Part shown: positions 8,972-59,531 of the stretch, one piece after another
Layout: the number at the start of each line of letters is the position of its first letter
Position numbering within the stretch: the stretch's first letter is position 1
DNA from: Desulfotomaculum sp.
GTDB taxonomy: Bacteria > Bacillota > Desulfotomaculia > Desulfotomaculales > Desulfohalotomaculaceae
Length of the DNA: 64,000 nucleotides
Assembly: GCA_017656165.1 (NCBI GenBank)
Contig: JACDOL010000001.1
Location: 1 to 64,000, forward strand
Direction of reading: 5' to 3'
Program-made: the position numbers and the translations under genes
Notes under the pieces: generated by a model
Told to the model about the DNA's origin: nothing
Database searches by the model: none
The model's input: only the letters and a program-made list of their open reading frames with translations

Positions 8972-9077
8972 TTACACTCCAAAAATACGCCGGAACATAT
9001 ACTTTAGAATGCTTAAGCTGCCGAACGCCTGCCAAACTCGTCGCTTCGCTCCTCTAACATACCCGGTGTTCTGATAT
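8972..9077 (-). repeat. Terminator-associated repeat family, copy A (internal 5' deletion)
   Basis: Minus strand: TCAGAACACCGGGTATGTTAGAGGAGCGAAGCGACGAGTTTGGCAGGCG...AAGTATATGTTCCGGCGTATTTTTGGAGTGTAA; aligns with the interior and right part of the copy at 37363. Confidence 0.7.
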
Positions 9078-9080
9078 AGT

Positions 9081-9117
9081 AAAAACAAAGCCCGCTCCAG
9101 GCGGGCTTTGTTTTTAC
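9081..9117 (-). terminator. Intrinsic terminator of the hydrogenase operon
   Basis: AAAGCCCGC-loop-GCGGGCTTT flanked by T/A tracts on both strands. Confidence 0.9.
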
Positions 9118-15222: not shown

Positions 15223-15245
15223 AAGTTTACAATAAAGTTGTATAA

Positions 15246-15268
15246 GGACTCGTTTAGAGTCCTTTTTT
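15246..15268 (+). terminator. Intrinsic terminator of yebC
   Basis: GGACTC-GTTTA-GAGTCC TTTTTT. Confidence 0.85.
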
Positions 15269-15276
15269 GCGTTAAT

Positions 15277-15372
15277 CAGAAAACGCATCCAAGGTATTTA
15301 CCGGAGAAAGTTCATTCAAGTATATGTGCCGGCGTGTTTTCGGAGTGTAAATACCTTGGCGGTGATAAGACC
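15277..15372 (+). repeat. Terminator-associated repeat family, copy B (71-bp short core)
   Basis: Core 15289-15359 ccaaggtatttaccggagaaagttcattcaagtatatgtgccggcgtgttttcggagtgtaaataccttgg, then cggtgataagacc; terminal inverted repeats. Confidence 0.9.
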
Positions 15373-15613
15373 GTAGGTTTTTTAATGTACTTTCTTAAAA
15401 AACTGCTTACACTGCCAGGCTAAAACTGTTAATAAAGGAAATTTAAGTATTAATTTAAGCATATGTCTTCCACCTGTATTATTTTCTAATACTTTATTCT
15501 TAAGACTTGTCTCGTGTGAATACCGTTACAAAAGGTATTAAATACACAACAAATGGAAAATATAGTAAGGCGCTGGCATATTTAACTAAAGAAATGTTCA
15601 GGAGGTTTTTTAA

Positions 15614-24083: not shown

Positions 24084-24205
24084 AGTGTCATGTTAAGGTT
24101 ATTTAATTGACATATTTTGCAGTACGGGTATATAATAACCCTTGTTTAAGGTTATTTGAAGCGGTAGGCTTACTTTTTAGCCAGATTAAGGGAGGAATTT
24201 AGTTT

Positions 24206-31515: not shown

Positions 31516-31550
31516 GGGCAGTTTTTAGGAACTGCCCTGTATTATTTTTA
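31516..31550 (+). terminator. Intrinsic terminator of the yteA-like gene
   Basis: GGGCAGTTTTTAGGAACTGCCC then TGTATTATTTTTA. Confidence 0.75.
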
Positions 31551-31552
31551 TT

Positions 31553-31637
31553 GGGGAGGAAAAGCACCGGGTATGTTTGAGGAGCTATGTGCCGGCGTGT
31601 TTTTGGGAGTGTAAATACCTTGGCTGGTGATAAGACC
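31553..31637 (+). repeat. Terminator-associated repeat family, copy C (3' half)
   Basis: ggggaggaaaagcaccgggtatgtttgaggagctatgtgccggcgtgtttttgggagtgtaaataccttggctggtgataagacc. Confidence 0.85.
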
Positions 31638-31728
31638 AATGTCTTTTTCTTAAGGTAATTTGTGTTTTGCCTCTAATATGCTATATTATTATTATTTGGG
31701 AATAAATACTATCATGGGGGTTTTAACA

Positions 31729-36494: not shown

Positions 36495-36507
36495 TGACTA
36501 AGAACAA

Positions 36508-36604
36508 TACCTTTAAATCGGTCCTGTGAGGCTGGTAAGGGAACATAGTGAAATTCACATTGGGTCAAACTATGTCTATTACCAGCCGGTAATAGGCTTT
36601 TTTA
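36508..36604 (+). promoter_or_regulatory. PyrR-dependent attenuator 1 (upstream of pyrR)
   Basis: PyrR-loop-like TTTAAATCGGTCCTGTGAGGCTGGTAAGG; GGCTGGTAA (36530-36538) fully complementary to TTACCAGCC (36579-36587); terminator CTATTACC-AGCC-GGTAATAG-GCTTTTTT. Confidence 0.9.
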
Positions 36605-36610
36605 ATATTA

Positions 36611-36670
36611 TCAGAAAGCATCTGAGGTAACAACGCAGCCGGAGGAAAAGCACCGAGTATGTTTGCCGCC
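36611..36670 (+). repeat. Terminator-associated repeat family, copy D (internally deleted)
   Basis: TCAGAAAGCATCTGAGGTAACAACGCAGCCGGAGGAAAAGCACCGAGTATGTTTG; left end joined to interior at GCAGCC. Confidence 0.8.
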
Positions 36671-37249: not shown

Positions 37250-37256
37250 AATGCAC

Positions 37257-37356
37257 TTCCTTTTAAATCGGTCCTGTGAGGCCGGCAAAGGAAGGGTTGA
37301 AAGTTGTGGCTCTTTTTTTGCTGGCCTCATCTCGGGTATCGAGATGAGGCTTTTTT
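37257..37356 (+). promoter_or_regulatory. PyrR-dependent attenuator 2 (pyrR-pyrB intergenic)
   Basis: TTTTAAATCGGTCCTGTGAGGCCGGCAAAGG; TGAGGCCGGCAAA (37277-37289) pairs with TTTGCTGGCCTCA (37317-37329) with one G-U; terminator GCCTCATCTCG-GGTAT-CGAGATGAGGC-TTTTTT. Confidence 0.93.
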
Positions 37357-37362
37357 ATACTG

Positions 37363-37577
37363 TCAGAAAGTATAAGTTTTGACGCAGCCAAAGTATTTAC
37401 CGGAGAAAACGATAGCCGGCAAATATTGGGGTTTGATTTATCAAACCCAGCAGCCGGAGGGAAAGTGCCGAGTATGCTTGAGCGACGAGCTGCACAGGCG
37501 CCCGGAGGCTTTAGCGTTTGTTCAAGTATATGTGCCGGCGTATTTTCGGAGCGTAAATACCTTGGCGGTGATAAGAC
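37363..37577 (+). repeat. Terminator-associated repeat family, copy E (most complete, about 215 bp)
   Basis: TCAGAAAG left end, CCAAAGTATTTACCGGAGAAA / TTTTCGGAGCGTAAATACCTTGG inverted repeats (37388-37565), internal hairpin GGGTTTGATTTATCAAACCC, right end GGTGATAAGAC. Confidence 0.9.
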
Positions 37578-37599
37578 AGAAGCCTTCTAATTATGAAAT

Positions 37600-47237: not shown

Positions 47238-47262
47238 ACTTTGTTCTTTGGATAACAACTGG

Positions 47263-47333
47263 CCAAGGTATTTACCGGAGAAAGTTCGTTCAAATATATG
47301 CGCCGGAGTGTTTTCGGAGTGTAAATACCTTGG
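47263..47333 (+). repeat. Terminator-associated repeat family, copy F (71-bp short core)
   Basis: ccaaggtatttaccggagaaagttcgttcaaatatatgcgccggagtgttttcggagtgtaaataccttgg; 4 mismatches over 71 nt to copy B. Confidence 0.92.
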
Positions 47334-47345
47334 CACTTAAGTTTT

Positions 47346-54442: not shown

Positions 54443-54483
54443 AAGGGTAGAGTTCATTTAGATAATTGAACTCTACCCTTTTC
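54443..54483 (+). terminator. Intrinsic terminator of the Ca2+ ATPase gene
   Basis: AAGGGTAGAGTTCA...TGAACTCTACCCTT TTCTT. Confidence 0.85.
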
Positions 54484-54491
54484 TTGCTGTA

Positions 54492-54541
54492 TCAGTTTTG
54501 ATGCAGCTAAGGTATTTACCGGAGAAAACGATAGCCGGCAA
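54492..54541 (+). repeat. Terminator-associated repeat family, copy G (5' part)
   Basis: tcagttttgatgcagctaaggtatttaccggagaaaacgatagccggca; matches copy E 5' part. Confidence 0.85.
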
Positions 54542-54548
54542 GTTTAAT

Positions 54549-59337: not shown

Positions 59338-59369
59338 AATACCCTTCCACTGCTGGGAAGGGTATTTTT
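59338..59369 (+). terminator. Intrinsic terminator of the aminotransferase gene
   Basis: AATACCCTTCC-loop-GGAAGGGTATTTTT. Confidence 0.85.
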
Positions 59370-59377
59370 CATAATAC

Positions 59378-59418
59378 CAGAGTATAAGTTTTAACCCATC
59401 CAAGGTATTTACCCGAAG
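59378..59418 (+). repeat. Terminator-associated repeat family, copy H (5' part, degenerate)
   Basis: cagagtataagttttaacccatccaaggtatttacccgaag; matches copy E CAGAAAGTATAAGTTTTGACGCAGCCAAAGTATTTACC. Confidence 0.8.
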
Positions 59419-59531
59419 TTTTTTAAATTTGAAATTAAGCATTTTGACATGATAATTAGAGGAATTTAAAATTTAAAGTAGAAAATCTATCTTTATGGTA
59501 AATAATCATTACAATAGTACTAATATTTTAG

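Follow-up and report, generated by a model that had tools for sequence, protein, structure and literature searches.

Copies of a small structured repeat behind intrinsic terminators in a Desulfotomaculum genome, probably left by a mobile element

The repeat copies described in this report mostly lie close behind intrinsic terminators, and on the same strand, in the genome of a Desulfotomaculum sp. (GCA_017656165.1, here G000; 2.29 Mb, 99.9% complete, 169 contigs). They were found in a stretch of 64,000 nucleotides of that genome, which we call the window, and then counted beyond it. The terminators belong to the host, the copy behind yebC has a T-run on both sides, and the wider family to which the repeat belongs shows covariation in its stems. 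The copies very probably go back to old insertions by a small, non-autonomous mobile element that encodes a structured RNA of ~200 nt and was aimed at the terminator hairpin and its T-tract.

The repeat and its copies in the window

In 575 kb of sequence fetched around the copies, 123 copies or fragments of the repeat were placed in G000. Arm patterns matched the whole genome 68 times for the left arm and 46 times for the right, and the reversed-pattern control gave 0 matches. The full form is ~220 nt long. It begins with (A/T)TCAGAAAGTATAAGTTTTGAYGCAG, has an outer stem in which CCAAGGTATTTACC pairs with GTAAATACCTTGG and a second stem of GAAAAC with GTTTTC, carries a conserved core, GCAGCCGGAGGAAAAGCGCCGAGTATGTTTGAG...CGAGTTACGCAGGCGCCCGGAGGC, and ends with CGGTGATAAGACCGAAGG followed by a T-run, as is common at the right ends of the element. 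Full copies fold as a long hairpin with the T-run after it. The majority of G000 copies are truncated or internally deleted, and many lack one entire arm. Some copies belong to a second left-end subtype, TGTTTAGGAAATTATGC...GGATAACARCTAGCC, whose end sequence is unrelated to that of the ACTATCAGAAAG subtype. Searches of phage, plasmid and viral collections gave no match to the element.

Many G000 copies have the palindrome GGGTTTGATTTATCAAACCC nested in their loop region (window positions 37425 to 37450; also L063 and L065). The same palindrome stands alone in genomes G003 and G004, and it is a separate REP-like repeat inserted into the element.

The copies in the window and the terminators near them are listed below, with the evidence for each. 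The gene names (yebC, hydrogenase, Ca2+ ATPase and aminotransferase) were assigned from sequence alone in a preliminary description of this DNA; G001 and G002 are sister species.

9081 to 9109, minus strand: terminator of the host's hydrogenase operon, stem plus T-tract, presumed target of copy A; from the sequence, and G001 and G002 have the orthologous terminator but no element there.
8972 to 9080, minus strand: copy A, with left end ACTATATCAGAA directly after the T-tract, internally deleted and truncated at its 3' side onto a T-run; from the sequence.
15244 to 15268, plus strand: host-owned yebC terminator, AAGGACTC..GAGTCCTTTTTT; the stem recurs in the sister species, where the element is missing.
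15269 to 15383, plus strand: copy B, a short subtype without the core; it has a spacer, a left end, an outer stem of CCAAGGTATTTACC/GTAAATACCTTGG, and GACCGTAGG followed by T6 as its right end; the right T-run aligns with the empty-site T-tract in G002.
31516 to 31649, plus strand: terminator (31516 to 31552) followed by the left-truncated copy C; from the sequence.
36506 to 36606, plus strand: PyrR attenuator 1, its terminator the presumed target of copy D; Rfam PyrR match.
36604 to 36670, plus strand: copy D, a fragment lying after attenuator 1 and before the next gene; element absent at the orthologous G002 site.
37255 to 37358, plus strand: PyrR attenuator 2, its terminator the presumed target of copy E; Rfam match.
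37357 to 37588, plus strand: copy E, almost of full length at ~220 nt, which contains the conserved core and the nested GGGTTTGATTTATCAAACCC palindrome; empty site in G002.
47251 to 47337, plus strand: copy F, of the second left-end type (GATAACAACTGGCC), an exception with no terminator directly upstream; from the sequence.
54445 to 54485, plus strand: terminator after the Ca2+ ATPase gene, presumed target of copy G; from the sequence.
54486 to 54547, plus strand: copy G, left part only; from the sequence.
59339 to 59369, plus strand: terminator after the aminotransferase gene, presumed target of copy H; from the sequence, with the terminator present without the element at the orthologous G002 site.
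59370 to 59424, plus strand: copy H, its left end joined to right end CCGAAGTTTTTT through an internal deletion at ACC; from the sequence.

The strings that the preliminary description gives for six copies (A, B, D, E, G and H) occur at the expected places and strands. Copy C follows a terminator, as had been stated there, and no counterpart was found for the copy I named in that description.

Placement behind terminators and the empty sites of sister species

Terminators were predicted by a scan for a hairpin plus T-tract on the same strand, with a stem of -9 kcal/mol or lower, and 40,000 random intergenic positions on random strands served as the null. A same-strand T-tract ends within 15 nt upstream of 35 of the 50 left-intact G000 copies, compared to 3.4% of the random intergenic positions (binomial p ~ 8e-40; this p-value and the one given below treat the copies as independent). 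The upstream gene is on the strand of the element in 83 of 101 cases. The preliminary description had claimed a near-constant distance behind same-strand terminators, in the orientation of the upstream gene, and had proposed testing distance and strand against intergenic positions; both claims hold across the genome. Its ruler of 7 to 10 nt from the T-tract spans a few poorly conserved bases, and the distance from stem to element is steadier. The first conserved base, where TCAGAAAG starts, follows the final G/C pair of the terminator stem at a median distance of 12 nt; in 22 of 40 copies this distance is 9 to 15 nt, compared to 2.8% of random positions. Ahead of the element, positions -13 to -7 are T-rich, positions -6 to -3 are almost free of information, and conservation sets in at about -2.

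Six left ends found later by the left-end pattern only served as a held-out set, and five of them lie directly after a terminator, as judged by eye. The two unrelated left-end subtypes, ACTATCAGAAAG and TGTTTAGGAAATTATGC, both occur close to terminator stems, the latter in several copies. A minority of copies, such as F and those at L173 and L178, have no good terminator. Predicted terminators number 1,055 in the stretches chosen around copies, and the 92 that are occupied describe those stretches rather than a genome-wide rate. The tens of well-preserved junctions are a ready data set for what is recognized.

The terminators involved are of many kinds. Two PyrR attenuator terminators, identified with Rfam, carry the element behind them, and copies are also preceded by the terminators of a T-box leader, a glycine riboswitch, 6S RNA, 5S rRNA and a SAM riboswitch. 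Since the hosts include mRNA, 5S rRNA, 6S RNA, attenuators and riboswitches, the factor that they share is the terminator, not the 3' end of a gene as such. At attenuators and riboswitches the element sits within the leader of the downstream gene. These sites bear on the idea that insertion was random and that only harmless copies behind terminators survived, which we regard as very unlikely. Insertions are tolerated behind terminators, and just 2 of the 123 copies lie inside long open reading frames, as survival would have it. Survival cannot, however, fix the strand or the stem distance of ~12 nt: among copies with any terminator within 150 nt, 35 of 41 are within 15 nt, compared to an expected 20% (p ~ 2e-19). 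Because the attenuator copies are inside 5' leaders, 3'-end “safe havens” do not explain the placement.

Stretches fetched from G001 and G002, two species of the same genus, provided orthologous sites for comparison. At all G000 sites with both flanks matched in G002 or G001, the element is absent from the sister and a terminator is present in most. The stem is identical or almost identical at yebC (GGACTC..GAGTCC), at PyrR attenuator 2, at the hydrogenase operon and at two L170 sites. Orthologous stems that stand without the element show that the terminators belong to the host, as had been proposed from the differences among the stems in the window. That the hairpin is instead a variable part of the element is barely credible: the two do co-occur in G000, but the same terminators occur without the element in the sisters, with the same stem at yebC, the L170 sites and PyrR attenuator 2.

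When the empty site at yebC, GAGTCCTTTTTTTAGTTTCTTTTG, is compared with the filled one, it lines up with the right-hand T-run and the bases that follow it (TTTTTTAATGTACTTTC). This alignment is what an insertion into the T-tract that leaves a T-run at either side should look like, although the right T-run may be the element's own part, as it is common at right ends. Intergenic divergence from the sisters is too high for a longer target-site duplication to be read, and inspection of G000 by itself showed none beyond the T-run. The mobility that we infer comes from comparing the sequences of different species rather than of strains of one species.

The sisters have a few relatives of the element. 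None of the three G002 copies is behind a terminator. In G001, a degenerate relative (L230:9662-9812, orthologous to about 24146 to 24186 of the window), whose left end TGTATCAAAAGTA resembles that of the G000 type, does not lie behind a terminator.

The wider RNA family and how the element may have moved

Core relatives occur in other genomes of the order, including Ca. Desulfopertinax, Desulfallas, BRH_c8a and Ca. Syntrophopropionicum. A covariance model built on the core matches 33 of the 113 genomes searched in the order and, across the phylum, 37 of 399 sampled ones, often with many copies each. In the 13-sequence seed, 14 of 20 pairs show double changes. In an alignment of 76 distinct sequences, which was fitted to the covariance model and so is biased towards it, 16 of 19 pairs show double changes and 87% of cells are paired, compared to 26 to 47% when the partners are slid. 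The sequence of the outer stem is rewritten between genera with its pairing retained. Multicopy bursts are lineage specific, with more than 100 copies in G000, at least 37 in G084, and ~20 in several other genomes. The Rfam 15 models, including runs at permissive thresholds on the window and on the loci with full copies, gave no match to the repeat, and a literature search of incomplete coverage found no description of the repeat family. The G000 repeat is a lineage-specific branch of this large structured-RNA family of Bacillota, which, as a conserved class of RNA repeats with often dozens of copies in a genome, is apparently undescribed so far.

The preliminary description overlooked this broad family, within which terminator targeting is special to the G000 lineage. 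By the same measure, a terminator at the corresponding distance was found for 36 of 48 G000 copies and for 8 of 85 copies in other genomes. Over a wider interval the other genomes show no enrichment, with 11 of 85 copies on the same strand compared to 14 of 85 in the opposite-strand control.

Several arrangements were seen elsewhere in the family. Tandem copies with periods of ~228 and 214 nt occur at G049:C45:16957-17737 and at L062 (G003). A subfamily in G084 (L280-L299) has ends of its own, roughly GGATAGACATCC...TTAATTTTCAGGATAG, with several copies chained end to end and some at contig ends, as expected of repeats. Copies from other genera at L072, L074 and L076 are flanked by inverted repeats of the type TAGWTTCCSCTGAAAAA...TTTTTCAGMGGAAWCTA, which are either a stem extension or transposon ends.

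Within G000, stem changes in individual copies number 56 disruptive, 25 one-sided with pairing kept, and 2 two-sided, as would be expected of neutral decay, without compensation. Covariation of the stems between lineages together with this decay within G000 fits a constraint on active master copies rather than on each insertion. The preliminary description had offered, as an option besides terminator-guided insertion, a functional role after the terminator, in which the element RNA would act where it lies as a back-up terminator, a 3'-end stabilizer or a read-through sensor. The fixed orientation, the hairpin and T-run of full copies, and the copies in attenuator leaders, which would be transcribed, are all in keeping with such a role. 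We nonetheless consider it very unlikely, given that most copies are truncated, many of them minus a whole arm, that the stem changes are mostly disruptive, that orthologous genes manage without the element at all sites compared in the sister species, and that the family is not behind terminators in other genomes. Fixed distance and strand, host-owned stems and the many kinds of terminator favor the guided-insertion option.

For insertion of a mobile element at terminators, the integration machinery of the lineage would have recognized the hairpin and/or the T-tract in DNA, or a paused single-stranded state, and joined the element into the T-tract in a single orientation. The T-run would have been duplicated on insertion, or the end of the element would have brought its own. 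The putative RNA of ~200 nt would end at ACTATCAG and GAAGG-U(n), and its structure would be kept by selection on the mobilized active masters while each insertion decays as neutral DNA. A reverse transcriptase acting on the RNA, in a SINE-like manner and much as for group IIC introns, which use this type of site, is about as likely as a DNA route with a transposase specific for hairpins or single strands.

Open reading frames around the copies of many other genomes were clustered without yielding a convincing shared protein family; the top cluster, inspected by eye as a candidate mobilizer, resembles low-complexity translation and was set aside. Reverse transcriptase matches comprise one broken group II fragment in G000, two in G001 and none in G002. 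Copy number does not track reverse transcriptase, and G002 has copies without a match. Y1 (IS200-like) transposases are present in all three genomes and therefore do not discriminate among them; the genes in G000 are L324 (G000:C49:290-649, with an in-frame stop) and L327 (C138). T-runs at truncated ends were also considered as a sign of truncated retroposition and rejected, since both ends show a T-run and T-rich microhomology explains several; deletions between T-runs could also account for such junctions by themselves.

Comparison with group IIC introns, small repeats and SINEs

The one class of element established, to our knowledge, to insert at intrinsic terminators is that of the group IIC introns. 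The G000 copies resemble them in lying behind many different terminator hairpins in one orientation. They differ from these introns in being ~220 nt long with no open reading frame, no group II domains and different ends, in an insertion point ~12 nt from the stem, inside the T-tract or behind it, and in that terminator targeting is limited to one lineage of their family.

Group IIC introns show that terminator hairpins can serve as DNA targets (PMC3898094, a review, and references there), and G000 has group II remnants of its own. One of these, L321 (G000:C12:1-151), has an internally deleted reverse transcriptase and lies directly after a long hairpin. In G001 (L320, L322), where the group II reverse transcriptase has ~449 residues, there is a very similar intron whose reverse transcriptase frame is longer. 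Derivation of the element from a group IIC intron, or from an intron-like ribozyme that reverse-splices at terminators, is nevertheless highly improbable. Group II catalytic RNA domains were not detected with Rfam models at permissive thresholds in the window or in the loci with full copies, whereas the same models find such domains in L320, L322 and L173. The copies are too short to encode a reverse transcriptase, and the single G000 match is a separate broken fragment. The ends of the element are unlike GUGCG..AY, its distance of ~12 nt from the stem contrasts with L321, which abuts its hairpin, and G002 carries copies without a reverse transcriptase match. The missing domains, reverse transcriptase and ends refute membership in the group II introns, as the preliminary description had maintained, and the element would work like group IIC targeting by analogy only. 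A second, unrelated element sharing the address of group IIC introns, at a distance from the stem that can be measured, would mean that terminator DNA, or the termination event, serves more generally as a landing site.

MITEs and the small pneumococcal repeats BOX and RUP are short, non-coding, multicopy and intergenic and are presumed to be moved in trans (PMC3049150), all of which would apply to the element as well. The G000 element differs from them in having no terminal inverted repeats, as neither of its ends, ATCAGAAAGTATAAG on the left and GATAAGACCGAAGG on the right, is an inverted copy of the other; no transposase sharing its ends was found; and what is conserved in it is a core that resembles an RNA and carries compensatory changes. 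As for a target-site duplication, there is a T-run on both sides, the right one matching the empty T-tract at yebC, and nothing further. The bcr1 repeats of the Bacillus cereus group, as described in PMC6542083, are likewise short, non-coding and interspersed, with up to ~130 copies, features of mobile elements, and a T-rich repeated motif, TTTAT, tied to mobility; their mobilizer is given there as unknown. By that description rather than by sequence, bcr1 is restricted to B. cereus, and the element is set apart from it by a family that spans many Bacillota families and is aimed at terminators in G000.

Eukaryotic SINEs offer an analogy in outline, with a structured RNA, lineage-specific bursts, a T-run at the target and decaying copies; they differ from the element, for which no RNA intermediate, reverse transcriptase or poly(A) tail has been demonstrated. 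It is possible, although we hold it doubtful, that the element is a bacterial counterpart of SINEs, an RNA of a so far unnamed Bacillota family that a reverse transcriptase retroposes in trans, with the T/A-tract of terminators as the priming site in the G000 lineage. If that reading were true, terminators would be a shared docking site for retroelements.
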